22,224 nucleotides of DNA from a virus. The stretch is from positions 1 through 22,224 of the IMG/VR virus record IMGVR_UViG_3300010354_000753. One strand, given 5' to 3'. The position numbers and the translations under genes are program-made. The notes beneath the pieces are model-generated. The model did no database searches and was not told the origin of the DNA. It saw only the letters and a list, made by a program, of their open reading frames with translations. Shown in pieces: positions 9,111 through 17,818 of the stretch; positions within the stretch are counted from its first letter, which is position 1, and each line of letters opens with the position of its first letter.

Positions 9111-12100
9111 TGGGCTTTCTTGAAATCATCTTAGCAATTGCGAGCATGGCTGCCGGAGAGGCGGCTGTCAGTTATCTTGCTGTAACTGGTTGGCAAGCTG
9201 CTGCGGTTCGCTTTGCTGTCGCTCTTGCAGTTTCGACTGCCTCTAGAAACTTAGTCACTCGCAAATCATTCCAAAGCGAAGCTGAGGGCAGGATCATCAC
9301 GACTAAGGAGCCTTTGGCGGCAGCTAAGGTGATTTATGGTCGGGTGAGAGTCGGCGGCACGATTGTCTACATGGAGACCACTAGCAGCTCCAACGAATAT
9401 CTGCACATGGTGATCGTCCTTGCTGGTCACGAGGTTCACGCGATTGATGACATCTACTTTGATGATGAGCTTGTTCCTTTAGACGGATCTGGCAATGCAA
9501 CTGGCACTTTTGCCGACCTTGTAAGAATCAAGAAAGCTCTAGGCACTGATGCACAAACAGCCTTTAGCGATCTCGTGTCTGAGTCTGATTCGCTTTGGAC
9601 AAGCAATCACCGGCTGAGAGGTCGCGCTGCAATCTATGTGAGGCTCAAATACAACCAGGACAAGTTTCCCAACGGTGTCCCTAATATCACAGCCATTGTC
9701 AGAGGCAAGAAGGTTTACGACCCAAGGACCACGACGACTGCTTACAGCACAAATCCTGCTCTGATCGTTGCTGATTACCTTTGCAACACCAGATATGGAC
9801 TTGGCGCGACTTATGCCACAGAGATCGACGAAACAGCTCTGACAGCTGCTGCAAACATTTGCGATCAGGATGTCACGCTCGATGCTGGCGGCACTGAAGA
9901 TCGCTACACAGCAAACGGATCATTTGACACGACTGAAGTGCCAGAGAAGGTGCTTGCTGAGCTTTGCAGCGCAATGGCAGGTCATGTCACCTATGTTGGC
10001 GGCAAATGGTCGATTCTTGCAGGAGCCTATAGATCAACATCAATCACGCTTGATGAAGATGACTTGCGAGCAGGCTTTAAGGTGCAAACCTTGGTTTCTC
10101 GCAGAGATCAATTCAACTCAGTCAAAGGTGTTTTTAGCTCACCAGACAACCTTTGGCAGCCAACAGATTTCCCGTCTTATTCGTCTGCTACTTTTGTATC
10201 AGAGGACAATAGCGAGACGGTTTACAGAGATATTTCGCTCCCTTATACGACCAGTGCAGCCACAGCGCAGCGTTTAGCGAAGATTGAGCTTTACAAGGCT
10301 CGTGAGCAGCTTTCGATGACTTTGCCTTGCAAGCTCACTGCTTATGGGGTCCAAGTTGGTGATGTGGTCAATGTAACCAACACCAGGATGGGCTGGTCTG
10401 CCAAGGCTTTCGAGGTTGTAGGCACAAAACTTGTTTTTGATCTCGATGCTGGCTTTGGTGTTGATCTCGATCTCAGGGAAACGAATTCAAGCATCTACTC
10501 TTGGGATGAAACAACGGAAGAGCAAGAGTTCGTGCAAGCTCCGAATACCAACTTGCCAAACCCAAGATCTGTTCCTGCTCCTACAGCTCTGACGCTCACT
10601 GAGGTCAAAGTTCTTCTCAATGATGGAACCCTTGCCAATGGCATTCGAGTTAGTTGGACAGCTCCGAGCGATTATTTTGTCAAGGAATATGAGGTCCAAT
10701 ACATCAGGACTGGTGGGGCGATCGACTATGGGCTCATCAGCCAGGCTGCAACTTCCTCACAGTCATTTGGCGACATCACTGCAAGCGCAACCGCTACGTT
10801 GAATTATGGGTCGATCTCAGATGTCATCATTTCTGGCGAGCCTGAATTCAACAGCGGCACGACAACAACAACGCAGCTGACGATCGCTCCAGTCATCCAG
10901 GCTGTCGAATATACGGTCAAGGTCCGATCGGTTTCTCATTTGGCAGTGAGATCTGCCTTTGTGCAAGACACGATCACCACAGGCGGCGATACAACGGCTC
11001 CCGCTGCACCATCACTTATCACGGCAACCGGCAAGATCAGGTCAATTGTTTTGAATTGGGAAAACCCAACGGATCTTGATTTTGATTCGGTGGAAGTATT
11101 CAGAAACACGACCAACAGCGTTAATTCTGCGACCAAGGTTGCTCAGATTGCTGCTGACAATTGGACCGACACAAATCTTGATAGTGATGTCACGCGCTAT
11201 TACTGGCTGCGATCGGTAGACATGTCTGGCAATCGCTCGGCATTCAGCTCTTCAGTCAATGCAACGACTCAAACGATTGTTTCTGCTGATTTCAGTGCTG
11301 AGGTGCTCAATCTCTTTGCTGAGGCTGGGGCTTATGGGATTGAGCCTGTTGCATCATTGCCAGCAACTGGAGATTTTGTCGGGCAGATCAAGTTTGATAC
11401 GACTGCGGTTGCTCTCTATCGTTGGACGGGATCAGCCTGGGACGATGACATTTTTAGCATCACGACAGGATCTGTTACGGCAAGTGCTTTTGCTGCTGGC
11501 ATCGAACCTATTTCAGTCGTCAGCTCTTTGCCAAGTGCGTCAGGTTACACAGGTCCAAAGGTTGTTTTTCTGACCACAGATGGCAAGCTCTATCGCTATG
11601 CTTCTGGGGCGTGGACAACTGCGGTGCTCACCTCGGATCTTTCTGGGACGCTTGCATCTTCGCAATTCAGCAACAGCCTGAGACCTGTCGAGGTTGTTTC
11701 ATCATTACCAAGCAGCTCCAACTTCCAGGGGCGCACAGTTTTTCTCACGACCGACAACAAGATATATCGGCACGATGGGACAAACTGGACTGCTGCGGTC
11801 CCAGCTTCAGATCTATCAGGCACTGTTTCTGATGCACAGATCGCTGGCCTGGCGGCTGCGAAGATTACCGGCACACTAACCAATTCCCAGATCGCTGATG
11901 TCGCAGCTGCGAAGATCACGGGATCTATTGTGGGAACCCAGATCACAGATGGCGCAATCTCAACAGCAAAGCTCGCAGCAGGATCGGTGACTACTGCCAA
12001 GGTTGCAGCTGGAGCAATTTCAGCAGATGAGATTGCAGCCAACGCGATCACAGCAGTCAAGATTTCTTCGGGTGCAGTAGAAACGGCAAAGATTGCAGCA

Positions 12101-13750
12101 GGAGCGATCGAGGCTAGCAAGATTGCATCCAGTGCGATCACGACCGACAAACTTGCAGCCAATGCGGTGACGACCGAGAAGATTACAAGCAATGCGATCA
12201 CCACAGGACTACTGGCTGCGGGGGCTGTGACTTCGGACATTCTTGCAAGCAACTCGATCATCGCTGGCAAGATTGCTGCAGGGGCTATCAACTCATCGAG
12301 CTTGTTTGTGAGTGGGGTGATTACCTCTTCTCATATCCAGGCAGGCACGATACAAGGCGACAGGATTGCTGCTAATACGATCACTGGTGGTCTTATTGCT
12401 GCAAGCGGGATCATCACCTCGGCTGCACAGATCAATGATGCTGTCGTTACTAATGCAAAGGTCACAAGCCTATTCTCAAGCGATTACAACGGGCCGATTC
12501 CACCATCGAGCAGCAACTTTGGGACTGCTGGTTGGTATCTCGACAAGTCGGGCAGTTTCTACGGCAATTCGGTCTATCTGCGAGGTCAGCTTGTCAGCGG
12601 CACTTCAGGAGCGCAGCGAGTAGAAATCAACAAGACACTCGCAAACAAGCTAGCGGTCTACAACAGCTCAAACACGCTTATCGGGGCCATAGGTGGCTCT
12701 GGAGTCTTTGGCGATGCAGTCATTCAGTCTTATCCGCAAATCGTCAGCGGATCGTTTCAGGGTGCTTATATCGAGACTCCGAGTTATACGGGGTCAACCA
12801 ATTATGGCTACGGTCTTTATGCAAAGACAGCTAATGCAGAGCTTGATTCATATATCAATTACTGGGACAGCTCTAGTGGTTTAAGAGCTGCGGTTGCAGG
12901 CACTATTAGTGTTGGCGCAGCTCTCAGATCTGGAGTGCATGGCTATCGTGACTCTAGCTATTCGGCTGGTGGTCGTTTTTATGATGGCAGCACTGGAACC
13001 CTTGTAACGCTTGCTGATAGCAGTGGCTATGCCTTAAACATTCGATCTGGGCAACTCAGATATGGATCAACCACCATACAAGCTCCAAGCGGATCATCAG
13101 GCGATTTCTTGCGTGGGAACGGTTCTTATAGTGCCTTATCAGCCTCAGACATTCCGAATATTTCCGGCAATAAGATTACATCTGGTTTGGTTGACTGGGG
13201 TTATGTCGCAGGCTTTAAGAACGGATCGAGTCAAGTCAGAGGCATTGCAGGCACTGGATCAACAGCGACTTTGCAAGCGTTTTTAGGATCAGAGACCACC
13301 GACACGACCTCTGGGAACATGGTTTATTACACCGAGGCTGGGGGTTATTTCGGTGGGGTCTATATAAACCAACGAGGAACAACAGCGACCTGGAGCGCAC
13401 TTTATTCAGATGCTCGGATGAAGGATGTGCTTGGTCAAATACCGATTGCAGACCCTCTAGAAACGCTGAAAAAAATTGGCAATCCTGTGATCTGGAAATG
13501 GAACCATGAGGCATCTAGCGAGGTCTGGGGCTATACAGCACAGCAGATCGGACAAGGGCTTCCTGATGCGGTGATAGAGGCTCCAAGAACACCGAGAGGC
13601 GACTATCAGCTCGTGCCTGGCACAGAAGAACGGGTGCTGACTTTTGATAACACCAAGTTTCAGATGCTTAAGGACATGGCTTTGATTTCACTTATTGAGA
13701 AGATCGAGATGCTTGAGGCTAAGATCGCTGCGCTGGAGGCTAGATCATGA
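9110..13750 (+). CDS. gpJ-like tail tip / host specificity protein with S74 C-terminus
   Basis: 1546 residues. Regions in order: hydrophobic start (1-45); gpJ-type hub and tip domains to about 480 (RNLVTRKSFQSEAEGRIITT, KVIYGRVRVGG, LSMTLPCKL); a fibronectin III-like domain (about 490-625) and a second (about 630-720, SIVLNWENPTDLDFDSVEVF); three tandem ~58-residue modules (743-914); a repeat region of roughly 10-residue units with KIAAGAI pattern (914-1104); a fibre shaft; and an intramolecular chaperone (from Ser1433 in YSDARMKDVLG) with a C-terminal coiled coil. The S74 family cleaves itself before that serine after helping trimerisation. The protein likely forms the central tip fibre that contacts the host. 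Confidence 0.9.
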   Translation: MGFLEIILAIASMAAGEAAVSYLAVTGWQAAAVRFAVALAVSTASRNLVTRKSFQSEAEGRIITTKEPLAAAKVIYGRVRVGGTIVYMETTSSSNEYLHMVIVLAGHEVHAIDDIYFDDELVPLDGSGNATGTFADLVRIKKALGTDAQTAFSDLVSESDSLWTSNHRLRGRAAIYVRLKYNQDKFPNGVPNITAIVRGKKVYDPRTTTTAYSTNPALIVADYLCNTRYGLGATYATEIDETALTAAANICDQDVTLDAGGTEDRYTANGSFDTTEVPEKVLAELCSAMAGHVTYVGGKWSILAGAYRSTSITLDEDDLRAGFKVQTLVSRRDQFNSVKGVFSSPDNLWQPTDFPSYSSATFVSEDNSETVYRDISLPYTTSAATAQRLAKIELYKAREQLSMTLPCKLTAYGVQVGDVVNVTNTRMGWSAKAFEVVGTKLVFDLDAGFGVDLDLRETNSSIYSWDETTEEQEFVQAPNTNLPNPRSVPAPTALTLTEVKVLLNDGTLANGIRVSWTAPSDYFVKEYEVQYIRTGGAIDYGLISQAATSSQSFGDITASATATLNYGSISDVIISGEPEFNSGTTTTTQLTIAPVIQAVEYTVKVRSVSHLAVRSAFVQDTITTGGDTTAPAAPSLITATGKIRSIVLNWENPTDLDFDSVEVFRNTTNSVNSATKVAQIAADNWTDTNLDSDVTRYYWLRSVDMSGNRSAFSSSVNATTQTIVSADFSAEVLNLFAEAGAYGIEPVASLPATGDFVGQIKFDTTAVALYRWTGSAWDDDIFSITTGSVTASAFAAGIEPISVVSSLPSASGYTGPKVVFLTTDGKLYRYASGAWTTAVLTSDLSGTLASSQFSNSLRPVEVVSSLPSSSNFQGRTVFLTTDNKIYRHDGTNWTAAVPASDLSGTVSDAQIAGLAAAKITGTLTNSQIADVAAAKITGSIVGTQITDGAISTAKLAAGSVTTAKVAAGAISADEIAANAITAVKISSGAVETAKIAAGAIEASKIASSAITTDKLAANAVTTEKITSNAITTGLLAAGAVTSDILASNSIIAGKIAAGAINSSSLFVSGVITSSHIQAGTIQGDRIAANTITGGLIAASGIITSAAQINDAVVTNAKVTSLFSSDYNGPIPPSSSNFGTAGWYLDKSGSFYGNSVYLRGQLVSGTSGAQRVEINKTLANKLAVYNSSNTLIGAIGGSGVFGDAVIQSYPQIVSGSFQGAYIETPSYTGSTNYGYGLYAKTANAELDSYINYWDSSSGLRAAVAGTISVGAALRSGVHGYRDSSYSAGGRFYDGSTGTLVTLADSSGYALNIRSGQLRYGSTTIQAPSGSSGDFLRGNGSYSALSASDIPNISGNKITSGLVDWGYVAGFKNGSSQVRGIAGTGSTATLQAFLGSETTDTTSGNMVYYTEAGGYFGGVYINQRGTTATWSALYSDARMKDVLGQIPIADPLETLKKIGNPVIWKWNHEASSEVWGYTAQQIGQGLPDAVIEAPRTPRGDYQLVPGTEERVLTFDNTKFQMLKDMALISLIEKIEMLEAKIAALEARS
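11336..11851 (+). repeat. Three tandem ~58-residue modules in the tip protein
   Basis: Units start at 11336 (GIEPVASLP), 11498 (GIEPISVVSSLP) and 11675 (SLRPVEVVSSLP). Each reads SLP...G..V.F.T....LYR...G.W......SD/TG(S/T)...(A/S)(Q/F). The second and third are close copies (VVSSLPS, VFLTTD, YR, SDLSGT); the first has diverged. This is an internal domain triplication within the coding frame. Confidence 0.8.
11850..12420 (+). repeat. Short fibre repeats (about 10 residues) in the tip protein
   Basis: Degenerate units of about 30 bases code for patterns such as GAISTAKLAA, GSVTTAKVAA, GAISADEIAA, NAITAVKISS and GAVETAKIAA, with GAI/NAI and KIAA as the constant part. About 17 units can be counted. 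Such repeats usually form trimeric beta-structured shafts in phage fibres. Confidence 0.8.
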
Positions 13751-14028
13751 GCTGCACCTGGTCGATCACAAAAATGGCTTCTGATCTAGATGAGCATGAT
13801 CGTCCTAACGTGATTAGAGAAGTGACGATCTCTTGCACGAGTGACGATGAATCATTCTTCACGACTGTGATGTTAGATCCACCATCTCAAAGTTTTGTCG
13901 ATTTCAATCTGGTCACACAAGCATTGGTCTGGCAATGGGTCTACGCAAAGATTTCCAAAGAAGATATAGAGGCTATTGTTTTGCAGCGCATTGCAGATCG
14001 ACAAACTGTTTCACAAATGCCGTGGTAA
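13747..14028 (+). CDS. Hypothetical protein downstream of the tip gene
   Basis: 93 residues with an ATGA overlap to the tip gene. The C-terminal helix (LVTQALVWQWVYAKISKEDI, then EAIVLQRIADRQ) is of a kind often seen in small phage proteins encoded next to tail fibre genes, including cyanophages. The N-terminal half looks beta-rich (VIREVTISCTSDDESFF). Function unknown; it may be a fibre-associated or assembly protein. Confidence 0.65.
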   Translation: MSCTWSITKMASDLDEHDRPNVIREVTISCTSDDESFFTTVMLDPPSQSFVDFNLVTQALVWQWVYAKISKEDIEAIVLQRIADRQTVSQMPW

Positions 14029-14037
14029 GGAAATGAC

Positions 14038-14766
14038 ATGACACAAGCAGTACAACTCAGAAAAGGCACGACCTCTGAACATTCGACCTTTACCGGTTTG
14101 CAGGCAGAGGCAACTGTCGATACGACTAAGAAAACCATCGTAGTCCATGATGGGTCGACTGCTGGCGGCATTCCTTTATCCAGAGAGGATCTGAGCAATG
14201 CGAACCCTAGCAATCTGACTACGATTGTTGGGGCTGATACAGCATCGGGCGATCTCTTTGTTGTTTATGACGTTTCAGCGAGCGCGTTTAAAAAGATCAC
14301 CAGGGCTGAGCTGAACAATGCAATGGAGCAAGATGCACTGGCTTCGGTTGCGATCACTGGCGGCAGCATAAACGGCACGACGATTGGCGCAAGCACTGCA
14401 AGCACAGGGGCTTTCACCACCTTATCTGCCTCAAGCACAGTTAGCGGTAATGGATTCAGCACTTATCTAGCCAGCCCACCAACTATTGGCGGCACTAGTC
14501 CAGGACTTATAACTGGGACAACAATAACAGCGACAAATCAATTTTCTGGGCCACATAATGGATCTGTTGGCGCAACCTCGCCGTCGAGCGGAATATTTAC
14601 CTCATTGGCATCTTTAAGTGTTTTACAAAATGTCCAAACAATTGCATCATCATCATCCATTTCAGCTGGCAACAATGGGCTTTCAGTTGGGCCTGTGACT
14701 ATTTCTAGCGGTGTTGTTTTTACAGTTCCAAGTGCAAGTATTTGGAAAATTTTAGAAGGAGTTTGA
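14038..14766 (+). CDS. Fibre protein with Mtd-type N-terminal beta-prism domain
   Basis: 242 residues. Residues 1-50 (QLRKGTTSEHSTFTGLQAEA, then TVDTTKKTIVVHDGSTAGGI, PLSREDL) match, as I recall it, the N-terminal beta-prism domain of BPP-1 Mtd (FRGGTTAQHATFTG..., VVVHDGATAGGFPLARHDL). The rest is a low-complexity fibre with two copies of a G-(S/T)-hyd-(N/G)-(G/A)T-...-GIF/GAF-T-L motif common in phage fibres and a C-terminus (VVFTVPSASIWKILEGV) typical of trimeric fibre ends. The ribosome binding site is AAGGAAA (14029-14034). It precedes the DGR target by one base, so the two products are probably made together and may interact. No VR-like sequence is present here. Confidence 0.75.
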   Translation: MTQAVQLRKGTTSEHSTFTGLQAEATVDTTKKTIVVHDGSTAGGIPLSREDLSNANPSNLTTIVGADTASGDLFVVYDVSASAFKKITRAELNNAMEQDALASVAITGGSINGTTIGASTASTGAFTTLSASSTVSGNGFSTYLASPPTIGGTSPGLITGTTITATNQFSGPHNGSVGATSPSSGIFTSLASLSVLQNVQTIASSSSISAGNNGLSVGPVTISSGVVFTVPSASIWKILEGV

Positions 14767-14767
14767 C

Positions 14768-15778
14768 ATGGCCTATGGCAAAGTGCTCGCAAATGCGACA
14801 TCTGCAACCGGCGTATTTCGCAAAGCTGATCCCACAATCGTCGCATGGACCAAAACTGGCGCATTTACAGCTACAACAGCGACTGAATTAACGATTGAGG
14901 TAAATGGTGAATCGCAAATCATTGCGTCTGGAACCTCGATCACGATGCCAGGTTCGGCCACGACAGGAACAGATTATGCAATCTGGGCAAAAACTGATGG
15001 CACATTGCAAGCAACAACCGATCACACATCTGCTCCGGCGACTGGTGCTAGAAAAGTCGGTGGGTTTCATTACGCGCCAGGCGGCAACGCAACAGGGACA
15101 TCTGGCGGTAATACCACAGCAGGAATTAACGAATATTCTTTTTGGGACTTGAAATTCAGGCCAGCTTGTAAAGATCCTCGCGGCATGACGCTAGTGGCTG
15201 GATGTTTTTGGTCTGATATCTATCTTTGCGGGGTCGATCACTATACAAACGGGACGAGCAAATATAACGTCACGATCGCAGACGGTTCATCGCTGCCTAA
15301 GATTAGTGCAGCTTTTGGGGGCACAGGATCTAACTCTTATGCTGGCGGCACTTGGTTTGCTTTCAATGAAATTATGCGCGGAGCTGGTAAGCGACTGCCA
15401 AGATATACAGAGTTTGCTGCTTTAGCCTATGGCACGACCGAGGCTTCTTCGCTCGGATCTGATCCGACTACAACAGGGGTCAGCAGCGGCACGTACACAA
15501 GCAAATGGGGCGTGATGCAATCCAGTGGAGTTATGTGGCAGTGGTCAGATGACTTTATTGCAAGTGGCGATGGGACTGGCGGCTGGCAAACTGGACTTAC
15601 AGAAACCAGAGGCAATATTTATACTTACAATTCCTCGGCACGCGCTGGGATCTTGGGCGGCTCCTGGAGCAGCGGGTCGGATTCCGGTTCTCGTTGCTCG
15701 TACTGGAACCTCGATCCATCGACCTCGTTCAACAACATGGGGGCTCGCGGCGTGTGTGACCACCTGATTCTTGATTAA
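14768..15778 (+). CDS. mtd: DGR target: Mtd-like receptor-binding protein with C-type lectin fold
   Basis: 336 residues with a strong ribosome binding site (AAGGAG, 14756-14761). It lacks the Mtd N-terminal prism but matches the remembered BPP-1 Mtd sequence from its beta-sandwich onward: ARKVGGFHYAPG, GGNTTAGINEYS, KFRPACKDPRGMTLVAG, GTSKYNVTIADGS, FTSKWGV-like YTSKWGVMQSSG, and the end GARGVCDHLILD. The C-terminal lectin domain carries the variable region at residues 291-324. Relative to the TR-coded sequence the diversified residues are A291, R292, S299, S301, S302, L315, T319 and F321. GSRCSYW and GARGVC form the invariant frame. In BPP-1, Mtd binds the host receptor at the fibre tip and is changed by the DGR to switch host range. 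Confidence 0.95.
   Translation: MAYGKVLANATSATGVFRKADPTIVAWTKTGAFTATTATELTIEVNGESQIIASGTSITMPGSATTGTDYAIWAKTDGTLQATTDHTSAPATGARKVGGFHYAPGGNATGTSGGNTTAGINEYSFWDLKFRPACKDPRGMTLVAGCFWSDIYLCGVDHYTNGTSKYNVTIADGSSLPKISAAFGGTGSNSYAGGTWFAFNEIMRGAGKRLPRYTEFAALAYGTTEASSLGSDPTTTGVSSGTYTSKWGVMQSSGVMWQWSDDFIASGDGTGGWQTGLTETRGNIYTYNSSARAGILGGSWSSGSDSGSRCSYWNLDPSTSFNNMGARGVCDHLILD
15638..15760 (+). repeat. DGR variable region (VR) with initiation-of-mutagenic-homing block
   Basis: Aligns without gaps to 16172-16294 (offset 534). Differences at 15638, 15639, 15641, 15642, 15662, 15663, 15669, 15672, 15710, 15711, 15723, 15728 and 15729 are all at TR adenines (four to G, five to C, four to T). One more difference, at 15739, is G against template C. 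The 21 bases 15740-15760 are identical to 16274-16294, GC-rich, and correspond to the start of the homing (IMH) block; the sequences diverge after 15760. The 5' boundary is uncertain by a few bases because the template starts with five A. Confidence 0.96.
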
Positions 15779-15792
15779 GTGGCGAAAGCCAC
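15779..15792 (+). other. GAAA-loop hairpin just after the VR (homing signal)
   Basis: GTGGC (15779-15783), GAAA loop (15784-15787), GCCAC (15788-15792): a 5-bp perfect stem starting right after the stop codon of the target gene. In BPP-1 and other phage DGRs a hairpin or cruciform with a GNRA-type 4-base loop lies a few bases after the IMH and raises homing efficiency. No such hairpin lies at the matching place after the TR. Confidence 0.7.
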
Positions 15793-15798
15793 GTTGTC

Positions 15799-16173
15799 AT
15801 GGAACCAATCTCAGAGGCGACACAATGTTACGATCAGATGGCTATTATCGAAAAGTACGAAAGGGTCATAGCCTATCTATATCCAATTGCTCAATCGATG
15901 CCTCGTCGACATGGGATAGCCAGAGACAAGTTTTTGCATTGTCTTTTTTCGGTTCCAGATCTTTTATATCAAGCGGGGAAATCAAATCAGATAAGCAAGA
16001 TATATGCTGCAGATGCTGGATTGGCTCATCTGCGGTTTTGGATGCGATTTCTTTTTACGATCAAAAGCATGACGCAACATCAGCTGCAAACGGCTCAGGC
16101 TGTTTTGGCAGAAGTTGGGGCGATGCTTGGAGGTTGGATCAAAAGAAGAAGAGCGCAGGGGCATACTGGGTAA
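15799..16173 (+). CDS. avd: Avd, DGR accessory variability determinant
   Basis: 124 residues. Avd forms a positively charged pentameric barrel of four-helix bundles that binds the reverse transcriptase and DGR RNA and is needed for mutagenic cDNA synthesis. Visible family features: YDQMAIIEKYERVIAYLYPI, then AQSMPRRHGIARDKF, LYQAGKSNQISKIYAADAGL, LRFWMRF and LLAEVG-like VLAEVGAMLGGWI, closely like BPP-1 Avd as I recall it (MEPIEEATKCYDQM...). That homologue also begins MEPI, which supports the start at 15799. It begins 20 bases after the target gene stop, across the hairpin, and its TAA (16171-16173) overlaps the first base of the TR. Confidence 0.95.
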   Translation: MEPISEATQCYDQMAIIEKYERVIAYLYPIAQSMPRRHGIARDKFLHCLFSVPDLLYQAGKSNQISKIYAADAGLAHLRFWMRFLFTIKSMTQHQLQTAQAVLAEVGAMLGGWIKRRRAQGHTG

Positions 16174-16294
16174 AAACGCTGGGATCTTGGGCGGCAACTG
16201 GAACAACGGGTCGGATTCCGGTTCTCGTTGCTCGTACTGGAACAACGATCCATCGAACTCGAACAACAACATCGGGGCTCGCGGCGTGTGTGAC
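16172..16294 (+). repeat. DGR template repeat (TR)
   Basis: The invariant donor copy for the VR at 15638-15760. In the VR reading frame it holds ten AAC codons plus one AAA; AAC is the codon whose adenine mutagenesis can reach many amino acids without giving a stop. Seven AAC codons and the AAA are altered in the VR. The stretch 16208-16240, which encodes the structural frame GSDSGSRCSYW, contains only two adenines. The 3' 21 bases (16274-16294) start the IMH* block, after which TR and VR diverge. Confidence 0.96.
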
Positions 16295-16439
16295 GACATC
16301 GATTTATCGCTTCGTAAAGGCTTACGCATTACGAGCAGGCCTGTCAAAATGTGGTCAGCCAGCAGTGTCCTCCTTCGGGGAATACATCAAGAGGTCTGGC
16401 ATAACGTCAAGTAGGCAATCCAAAGACGGGGCTAGCACA
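16295..16439 (+). ncRNA. DGR RNA spacer between TR and reverse transcriptase
   Basis: About 145 bases without a plausible gene. The equivalent spacer in BPP-1 is about 140 nt and, as RNA, primes cDNA synthesis and binds the RT-Avd complex. A possible fold here pairs CGTAA (16313-16317) with TTACG at 16322-16326 or, in a longer bulged form, GCT-CGTAA (16309-16317) with TTACGAGC (16329-16336). There is also CCTTCGGG (16372-16379), a UUCG-type loop. The function is assigned by analogy and position. Confidence 0.7.
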
Positions 16440-17432
16440 ATGCCAAAACGACACAGGCATTTGATTGAAAAAATTGCGGACATCCAGAATTTGAGATCTG
16501 CATATATCAATACGGCACGATCCAAACGAATGACTCATGGATATTTAGAGTTTAAGGAATACGCCGAATCAAATTTATCATTGATTCAATCAGAGCTTTT
16601 GGATGGTGGCTATAAGATTGGTCCTTATAGAGAGTTTGTTATTTATGAGCCTAAGGCGCGATTGATTTCTGCTCTTGATTTCAAAGACAGGTTGGTGCAA
16701 CACGCACTTTGTAATGTTATTGGACCGATCTTCGAAAAAGCAATGCTTCCGCAAACCTTTGCATGTCGTGTTGGACTTGGCACACATGCAGGAGTCAAAT
16801 ATTTGCAAGCGGAAATGCGTCGAATTGATGCAACGCACTTTTTGAAAACTGATTTCTCAAAATATTTCCCATCCATAGATCATAAAATCTTGCATGAGAT
16901 GATTGATCGTAAAATTGACTGCGAAAAGACCCTGAAGATTCTAAGAGAGATTATTCCAATCAATGGAAAGGGCATCCCGATTGGAAGTTTAACTTCGCAG
17001 CTTTTTGCAAATGTTTATGGCGGTTCTGTTGATCGTTATATTCACTTTGAATTAAAACATCGAGCATGGGCAAGATACATGGATGATATTGTGATTCTTG
17101 GGCATGACGAAAAAGAGCTGAGAAGTTCGTTTTCTAAGATACAAATCTTTTCAAAAGAAAAGTTACTATTAGCAATAAGCAAGTGGCAATCTGGGCCTAT
17201 CAGCAGAGGCATCAACTTTCTTGGGTATCGTATCTGGCCCACGCACAAGCTCTTGAGGAAAGATTCTGTAATAAGAGCAAAACAAAAGATTTCAAAGTTT
17301 GTTCGTCTTGGCGATCAAGACTCATTAAGAAAATTCATTGCTTCATGGTCTGGTCATGCTCGTTGGGCAGACACGCACAACCTTTTTAATTGGATGGAGA
17401 ATCGACATGGCATCGTTTGTCATCAACAGTAG
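16440..17432 (+). CDS. brt: DGR reverse transcriptase
   Basis: 330 residues, near the 328 of BPP-1 bRT. It copies TR RNA into adenine-mutated cDNA that replaces the VR. Motifs: PKARLISALDFKDRLVQHAL (71-90), FLKTDFSKYFPSID with catalytic Asp138, the DGR-specific IPIGSLTSQLFANVYGG (179-195, SQ in place of the QG of other RTs), YMDD with Asp215 and Asp216, and NFLGYRIWPTHKLLRK after it. There is no RNase H or endonuclease domain, as usual for DGR RTs. The start at 16440 was chosen because the homologue begins M(G/P)KRHR and a longer open frame upstream covers avd and the TR. All catalytic residues are intact. It overlaps the next gene by 26 bases. Confidence 0.97.
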   Translation: MPKRHRHLIEKIADIQNLRSAYINTARSKRMTHGYLEFKEYAESNLSLIQSELLDGGYKIGPYREFVIYEPKARLISALDFKDRLVQHALCNVIGPIFEKAMLPQTFACRVGLGTHAGVKYLQAEMRRIDATHFLKTDFSKYFPSIDHKILHEMIDRKIDCEKTLKILREIIPINGKGIPIGSLTSQLFANVYGGSVDRYIHFELKHRAWARYMDDIVILGHDEKELRSSFSKIQIFSKEKLLLAISKWQSGPISRGINFLGYRIWPTHKLLRKDSVIRAKQKISKFVRLGDQDSLRKFIASWSGHARWADTHNLFNWMENRHGIVCHQQ

Positions 17433-17646
17433 GGCTGATCTTGATGCAATTGCAGGGACGGTAGAACATCAACGATTTATGCAGGCTTTGCGCGGGTCAA
17501 TGATTCGCAAGATCAATGTTCAGACGTATCCTGATGGATACAACCAGCCTGGCTATAGTGGACCGACATTGGAACCAGTTTGGCAAGATCAGGAAGATCT
17601 ATCTACGATCGAGCAATTTGGTTTTACCAAAGAAGATTTTGAGTGA
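17407..17646 (+). CDS. Hypothetical phage protein
   Basis: 79 residues starting ASFVINSRADLDAIAGT inside the end of the reverse transcriptase gene, with GGAG (17395-17398) eight bases before the ATG. Similar short proteins with an N-terminal N(R/S)ADLDA helix and a C-terminal TIE.FGFTKEDF phrase occur among phage late genes, often near tail fibre and lysis genes. The function is unknown. It is translationally joined to both neighbours and is not a standard part of DGR cassettes. Confidence 0.65.
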   Translation: MASFVINSRADLDAIAGTVEHQRFMQALRGSMIRKINVQTYPDGYNQPGYSGPTLEPVWQDQEDLSTIEQFGFTKEDFE

Positions 17647-17653
17647 GGATGAA

Positions 17654-17818
17654 ATGTCACGCGATGAGGCTTTAGCAGCAATCGAAAAGCACGAGGCTTT
17701 ATGTGCCTTGCAATATGCTCAGATAAACGCTCGACTAAAACGCTTGGAGCAGATTCTGCTTGGTGCTGGCGGTGCAATTATCCTGCTGCTGCTCAACCTG
17801 GTGCTAAAGCTGCATTGA
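17654..17818 (+). CDS. Small membrane protein, XhlA/holin-like
   Basis: 54 residues. The start at 17654 is supported by GTGAGGA a few bases upstream. It has an N-terminal amphipathic helix likely to form a coiled coil (EKHEALCALQYAQINARLKR) and one C-terminal membrane helix (LLGAGGAIILLLLNLVL). This layout is like XhlA-type lysis accessory proteins. With the next three genes it makes a lysis cassette. The role is an inference from layout and context; no family motif is certain. Confidence 0.65.
   Translation: MSRDEALAAIEKHEALCALQYAQINARLKRLEQILLGAGGAIILLLLNLVLKLH

Follow-up and report, generated by a model that had tools for sequence, protein, structure and literature searches.

A hidden reading frame crosses the template repeat of a BPP-1-type diversity-generating retroelement and may couple translation of its reverse transcriptase

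Introduction

Could the template repeat (TR) of a diversity-generating retroelement (DGR) also be coding sequence, read by ribosomes on their way to the reverse transcriptase (RT) gene? The question is raised by a viral DNA of 22,224 nucleotides (positions 1 to 22,224 of IMG/VR record IMGVR_UViG_3300010354_000753), referred to below as the window, on which all coordinates are given. On sequence grounds the element in it is a complete DGR of the BPP-1 type with small differences. Taken by itself, this DGR is one more natural, diversifying Mtd-type element of an already known kind; what matters more is a hidden reading frame, here called X, which begins within the accessory gene avd and crosses TR and the spacer into RT. 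With a probability of roughly 0.7, the best explanation of the locus is a BPP-1-type DGR in which the role of X is translational coupling of RT.

Frame X in the window

The features over which the frame runs, or to which it leads, were assigned as follows.

15799..16173, + strand: avd (accessory variability determinant), matching 4dwl Bbp7 (E 4e-50) and PF22296 bAvd (E 7e-28)
15813..15817, + strand: Shine-Dalgarno-like AGAGG, 7 bases 5′ of the start of frame X, assigned by sequence and group comparison
15825..16439, + strand: hidden frame X, whose ATG starts on the last base of avd codon 9 and which lies in the avd −1 frame
16177..16297, + strand: TR, a direct repeat of the variable repeat (VR)
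16309..16436, + strand: spacer RNA, Rfam Phage_DGR RF03022 (89.7 bits against a gathering score of 50)
16440..17432, + strand: DGR RT, 330 amino acids, matching 8ub7 (E 6e-147), BPP-1 brt (64%) and PF00078

In the list of open reading frames (ORFs), the RT reading frame was open backwards to 15771, across TR and avd. Starting at ATG 15825, with AGAGG seven bases 5′ of it, X contained no stop through avd, TR and spacer and continued in frame into RT, X and RT forming a single frame of 535 amino acids (15825-17432). The −1 frame of the window avd had 0 stops where 5.3 were expected, and 0 of 400 synonymous-codon shuffles were stop-free.

Loci and counting rules

Sequences with an RT match (236, window included, many of them the same contigs repeated) were reduced to 102 distinct TR/VR cores. 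L102, in which TR and VR came out reversed, was dropped, leaving 101 loci; a usable avd match was present in 94, the window among them, and the RT tree held 93. No TR/VR pair was obtained in 12 of the first 80 relatives, 11 of which had <730 bases upstream of RT. An additional 25 loci, with RT identity of 39–81% to the nearest of eight references, consisted of 8 found earlier but outside the 94 (4 bridged) and 17 found later (7 bridged).

A locus was scored as bridged if a frame spanned the gap from the avd stop to the RT start and then entered RT or stopped at the RT start. Evidence on the frame was taken from classes defined on this gap (63, 23 and 8 loci) and from spacer shuffles; the “open” class (58 loci) was defined by the absence of stops, and its zero counts are no evidence.

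Frame bridging across relatives

In relatives the length of the upstream opening of the RT frame was bimodal. Among the 94 loci, 49 had a frame that entered RT in frame and 34 a frame that stopped within −5 to +5 of the RT start, giving 83 bridged loci, compared with an average of 26 and a maximum of 37 in 200 rounds of spacer shuffling. With the tests applied in the other order the counts were 53 in frame and 30 stopping, the total again being 83/94, and after dereplication 55/64 loci were bridged (shuffles: average 17.5, maximum 25). Insertion of 1–2 bases at the TR end lowered the number of bridged loci from 83 to an average of 45 and a maximum of 56 (200 rounds). Strict overlap of the stop with the RT start was found at 12/94 loci (shuffles: average 4.5, maximum 9). 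The window and 82 others of the 94 loci had an upstream frame open to the downstream start, the arrangement looked for in coupled gene pairs; X and RT of the window are not filed as a translationally coupled gene pair but may work like one.

The openness extended into avd. In the 63 loci with the gap open in the avd −1 frame, avd from codon 10 on had 24 stops in that frame against 194 expected, 58 of these loci being stop-free from codon 10 on, and the other off-frame of avd had 294 stops against 308 expected. Where the gap was open in another frame (23 loci), the avd −1 frame had 72 stops against 94 expected, and where no gap frame was open (8 loci) it had 46 against 42. The class of a locus was set on the gap alone, yet it predicted the stop content of avd.

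Spacer length changed at least 36 times on the RT tree, and the remainder of that length modulo 3 changed at least 12 times where 24 changes were expected (p 4e-5 if changes are independent and unbiased). In L020 X lies in the RT frame, while in its sister L023 the shifted frame ends with ATGA on the RT start. BPP-1 itself (L052) has an open frame through avd, TR and spacer.

Start sites

An ATG or GTG at avd position 7.7–8.7 was present in 50/63 loci open in the −1 frame versus 4/31 of the others, and the median ribosome-site energy at the X start was −5.4 in open loci versus −0.9 in closed loci. In the second group (the 23 loci with the gap open in another frame), 19 had an ATG 5 or 8 bases before the avd stop with a site energy of −4.6 to −9.4, 2 had an ATG 4 bases after the avd stop and 2 had none. 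The frame of this second group reads TR in the frame of the target gene and then reaches RT.

The same data bear on whether RT is made as an Avd-RT fusion by −1 ribosomal frameshifting within avd. X coincides exactly with the avd −1 frame and is continuous with RT in 46/58 open loci, as a fusion of this kind would have it; we nonetheless consider frameshifting improbable. A −1-frame stop lies shortly before the ATG or GTG in 22/58 open loci (the last stop ending at avd codon position 1.7–8.7), whereas 58/63 gap-defined loci have no such stop from codon 10 on, and a start with a ribosome site is kept at that border. RT lies in another frame in 12 open loci; X ends on the RT start in 10 of these and overruns it by 22 and 404 bases in the remaining two.

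Points against coupling, and the by-product alternative

A number of results weigh against coupling. In the window no stop of X overlaps the RT start, X running on in frame, and the folding of 16290-16470 was no better than that of shuffles (z −0.2), giving no sign that the RT start is masked. The window spacer alone was bridged by chance in 14% of shuffles (142/1000). Among the 94 loci, 8 lacked an open frame over the gap and 3 overran the RT start. Outside them only 11 of the 25 additional loci were bridged (4.2 expected from shuffles, maximum 9 of 300 rounds) and 14 were not, and TR did not lie inside the RT frame in 5 of 8 other phage DGRs, which were hand-picked from 128 records (L252, a Bordetella phage in the same table, was not counted). 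With 11/25 outside loci bridged and TR inside the RT frame in 3/8 other phage DGRs, universality of the frame across DGRs was rejected. The stop was at +5 in 17 of the 34 stopping loci and in 7 of the 11 bridged outside loci, a placement partly forced by the first codons of RT. Because the loci share ancestry and a conserved spacer RNA, the shuffles overstate independence and the chances derived from them are too small. Finally, a ribosome-site score of −4.4 or better was found at 44% of RT starts, 14% of avd starts and 19% of all ATGs; RT starts are not without ribosome sites, and the score is a weak guide, since avd starts score poorly.

Several of these points favor an ordinary BPP-1-type DGR whose frame is open incidentally, as a by-product of base composition, of codon bias or of descent from one ancestor with a conserved spacer RNA. 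Most genes tested were mildly depleted of stops in the same frame, with a stop ratio of 0.86 for the RT and target genes of the loci and 0.66–0.95 for eight other window genes; conservation of the spacer RNA, chance bridging of the window spacer and the unbridged majority of outside loci point the same way. Against this, the ratio for avd of the X group was 0.12, corresponding to the 24 stops against 194 expected, and the other off-frame of avd was near expectation. The register was mostly kept through changes in spacer length, one end is served by two frames, each with a start site of its own, and bridging fell after short insertions at the TR end. A by-product therefore appears unlikely as the explanation. 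Composition or codon bias alone was likewise disfavored, the other off-frame of avd, RT, target and window genes being near expectation or only mildly depleted.

Product of frame X

Another possibility is that X encodes a real protein or an N-terminal RT domain (an X-RT fusion of 535 amino acids) with a function of its own. The frame enters RT without a stop in 49/94 loci, and in Pseudoalteromonas phage ACA1 TR is, according to the authors in a passage of PMC10612066, translated as an N-terminal extension of RT. Spacer substitutions, however, showed little periodicity by X codon position (121:130:147 in 17 disjoint in-frame pairs; 25:34:34 and 32:23:34 in the stopping groups, 5 pairs each), and 218/293 X codons changed in in-frame pairs were changed non-synonymously. 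Divergence at avd four-fold sites, which are mostly non-synonymous in X, was about that of RT (0.38 versus 0.42; 22 pairs, gap-free alignment). The RT ATG was kept in 44/46 open loci in which X runs in frame through the RT start, and the solved form of bRT has 328 amino acids. Since X codons show little periodicity and avd four-fold sites no sign of constraint, a functional X protein was disfavored; we regard it as less probable than a by-product and more probable than frameshifting.

To judge from these comparisons, selection appears to keep frame X open and in register, and not its amino acids; since it is openness and register that are kept, the likeliest role of X is translational coupling. 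Openness beyond chance, register, the placement of starts and stops and a lack of detectable amino-acid constraint were observed, and it is from these that we infer translation of X, its coupling to RT and a switch between messenger and template.

Proposed mechanism and its consequences

In the proposed mechanism, ribosomes would initiate inside avd at ATG 15825, translate the −1 frame across TR and spacer and reach the RT start, in the window by running in frame into RT and in other relatives by stopping on or beside the RT start codon. Their passage would keep template and spacer covered and open the RT start, and a single RNA would alternate between messenger, making RT, and template, making cDNA. 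With the chemistry taken from BPP-1, the RT-Avd complex would make errors at A while copying TR RNA, and its cDNA product would replace VR at the tip of the host-binding Mtd-like tail protein, upstream of the initiation of mutagenic homing (IMH) sequence and a hairpin. Whether in most BPP-1-type DGRs, the prototype included, the template is also coding, lying in a hidden frame that overlaps avd and takes ribosomes across TR and the RT-binding spacer as far as RT, its RNA being either translated for RT or folded and copied, is in our estimate evenly balanced.

If ribosomes pass through TR of the prototype family en route to RT, the level of RT, the folding of the template and mutagenesis would be linked, with the frame fixing RT dosage and turning mutagenesis on or off. 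A repair level of about 1e-8 was obtained with the native BPP-1 operon in E. coli and ascribed in a passage of PMC12875486 to the lack of a clear ribosome-binding site before brt; addition of such a site before brt gave a 100-fold gain (same source). Coupling would explain why brt was found without a clear ribosome site; engineered TRs might break RT expression, and the weakness of the native operon in E. coli could be read in this way. DGR regulation would become directly testable.

The frame that would make TR coding sequence, which BPP-1 has as well, is the part for which no prior record was found for BPP-1-type DGRs. The literature search, beyond which many DGR papers lie, returned only the ACA1 statement and DiGReF group 3 on such a frame. 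The ACA1 authors call a translated TR uncommon (in the passage of PMC10612066), and a passage of a large survey (PMC8144416) places TR between genes in most cases.

The target gene and its neighborhood

The remaining parts of the element, and the gene upstream of it, were assigned as follows.

14038..14766, + strand: upstream tail protein with the Mtd N-terminal domain (Pfam Mtd_N, PF18454, E 2.4e-14, residues 5-41)
14768..15778, + strand: target gene, Mtd-like tail protein of 336 amino acids (PDB Mtd, E 1e-100, Mtd residues 52-381)
15643..15738, + strand: VR, mutable part (9/24 template A changed, 0/72 other bases)
15739..15763, + strand: IMH end of VR, with two differences from TR (C to G, 15739; G to C, 15761)
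15779..15792, + strand: hairpin GTGGC-GAAA-GCCAC, directly 3′ of the target stop (5 bp stem, GAAA loop)

The first-pass annotation had listed a target gene with VR, avd, TR and RT as all present and intact, which the matches to Mtd, Bbp7 (4dwl) and bRT (8ub7) and the YMDD motif bear out; it had not picked up frame X, the separate Mtd_N gene or the short hairpin. The RT translation contains YMDD and IGSLTSQ; IGxxxSQ is typical of DGR RTs. The target has 53% identity to BPP-1 mtd but lacks the Mtd_N domain, which is encoded by the separate gene upstream, and begins at the second Mtd domain (match to PF21916 mtd_2nd). Mtd has a C-type lectin fold, and by homology to solved Mtd structures the target is assigned as a C-type lectin.

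The IMH role of the VR 3′ end was taken from BPP-1 (a passage of PMC3240598). Its GC-rich stretch contains one T and its first base, 15739, differs between VR and TR, where the criterion is a (GC)14 identical in both. The hairpin has a GRNA loop, and its stem is shorter than the 7–10 bp given in the passage of PMC3240598; it measures 5 bp compared with 8 bp in BPP-1, and VR has nonetheless diversified between phages sharing this hairpin.

The carrier is a tailed phage with a lambda-type portal. The portal protein (317-1795) has 57% identity to those of Roseobacter phages CRP-406/821, and no RT or DGR gene was found among the 36 of 43 CRP-821 features listed. Relatives of Mtd are present in Marinomonas phage P12026, with no RT among the 17 features of it listed, and in Synechococcus phages S-CBS1/3. 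Megablast of the whole window against phages gave no match.

Variation between VR and TR

VR 15643-15763 and TR 16177-16297 form a direct repeat of 121 bases at an offset of 534. Alignment by program confirmed the repeat and, over 15638-15738, the earlier description of differences confined to template A (13/29 A, 0/72 other bases; Fisher p 8e-9) and spread over three bases (5 to C, 4 to G, 4 to T). The VR 5′ edge at 15638 was not upheld. Positions 15638, 15639, 15641 and 15642 face the TR run AAAAA, which takes in the end of the avd stop codon (16171-16173), and these first four differences are probably flank, since the same bases are fixed in the close relatives L002 and L003 despite 20 other VR differences. 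The secure count over 15643-15738 is 9/24 A and 0/72 others (Fisher p 1e-6), the nine changes being 4 to T, 3 to C and 2 to G. Instead of the eight varied residues first proposed, six are secure by A substitution, and all are AAC (asparagine) codons, at 15662, 15668, 15671, 15710, 15722 and 15728.

Two non-A differences lie just 3′ of 15738, at the IMH end (15739, C to G; 15761, G to C). At 15739 the window VR has G, and the window TR and the L002 VR and TR have C; this position is at the IMH edge, adjoining the expected cDNA start. No second VR was found among the repeats listed for the loci (at most 3 per locus, on both strands of the fetched stretch) or for the window region.

In 67 distinct TR/VR pairs, the window included, 914/1755 A differed versus 62/6166 other bases, part of this contrast being built in by a repeat finder that penalized non-A mismatches harder. 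The possibility that VR differences in relatives fall equally at non-A sites, named beforehand as grounds for doubt, did not hold. Among 102 distinct pairs the non-A changes from TR to VR included 51 T to G, 16 T to C, 3 T to A and 4 G to T, with T to G mainly at four codon sites (12, 15, 5 and 5 cases; counts ignore shared ancestry). In other DGRs T to C is reported as preferred (a passage of PMC6642488); the T to G excess may reflect dC misincorporation at template U.

Diversification in nature

L002 and L003 were identical over the fetched stretch and were counted as one relative. Compared with them the window had 100 differences over the 4267 upstream bases (10440-14706), 4 over the 8 that follow, 0 in 14715-15637, 20 in the 126 bases 15638-15763, 3 between the VR end and 17791 and 8 over the 203 bases beyond. 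Within the cassette (14715-17791), whose limits were chosen after seeing where the differences stop, there were thus 3 differences in 2951 bases outside VR versus 20 in 126 within it (p 6e-26). Template A underlies 18 of the 20; the other two are at 15701 and, at a template C, at 15739. At 15701 the two VRs differ exactly as the two TRs do at 16235, which is what copying of TR information into VR would produce.

Judged by this sequence comparison with one relative, the DGR has diversified in nature. The description “apparently active” gains its support here, from a VR rewritten against a near-identical cassette, which a comparison of VR with TR alone could not provide. The cassette is near-identical to that of L002 outside VR, and its flanks differ by 2.3% upstream and 3.9% downstream; this low divergence relative to the flanks suggests exchange of the cassette as a block, and it looks as though the cassette was recently shared in this way while VR was rewritten. 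Five solved Mtd variants differ at 11 positions in the aligned VR, and by manual reading all 11, plus two more, also differ between the window and L002.

That the DGR is a relic no longer diversifying seems very improbable, even though removal of 2 of the 8 bp of the BPP-1 stem made homing markedly lower, to about the level of a destroyed stem (a passage of PMC3240598), and the stem here has only 5 bp. L002 has the same hairpin and shows 20 VR differences from the window, with 3 in the rest of the cassette; both RT and Avd are intact; and the commonest stem found in relatives is 6 bp (50/89 hairpins found in 101 loci).

Comparison with known systems

In the VHML-type DGRs of Vibrio phage VP58.5 and Pseudoalteromonas phage ACA1, and in that of Aeromonas phage phiARM81mr, TR lies inside a frame that runs from the avd end and contains RT; VP58.5 and ACA1 have an ATGA junction. 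In ACA1, as in the window, the N-terminal part of the tail fiber is a separate gene (a passage of PMC10612066). Unlike in the window, the first ATG in all three is at or just after the avd stop and not inside avd, and their RTs are only 39–42% identical to the window RT. A group in PMC3521204 also has TR overlapping an RT-linked ORF; unlike the present frame it is based on annotated ORFs. That paper puts TR upstream of RT in the BPP-1 order, and no frame overlapping avd is mentioned in the passages concerned.

The RT frame of L252 (Bordetella phage vB_BbrP_003) stops about 200 bases before the point reached in BPP-1, and RT, annotated there with 792 bases, looks truncated as deposited. The BPP-1 record (L243) gives the gene names bbp4, brt, bbp7, mtd and bbp9, with no bbp6 listed in the region; perhaps bbp6 was an ORF once called in that stretch and later dropped.

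Among the closest known systems is the BPP-1 DGR itself (mtd, bbp7/avd, TR, brt). In the window, unlike in BPP-1, the Mtd N-terminal domain has a gene of its own and the hairpin stem measures 5 bp (8 bp in BPP-1), and the phage backbone is a different one. It shares with BPP-1 the gene order, the Mtd target, Avd, TR before RT, the spacer RNA family, A-specific differences between TR and VR, and the open frame through avd, TR and spacer.

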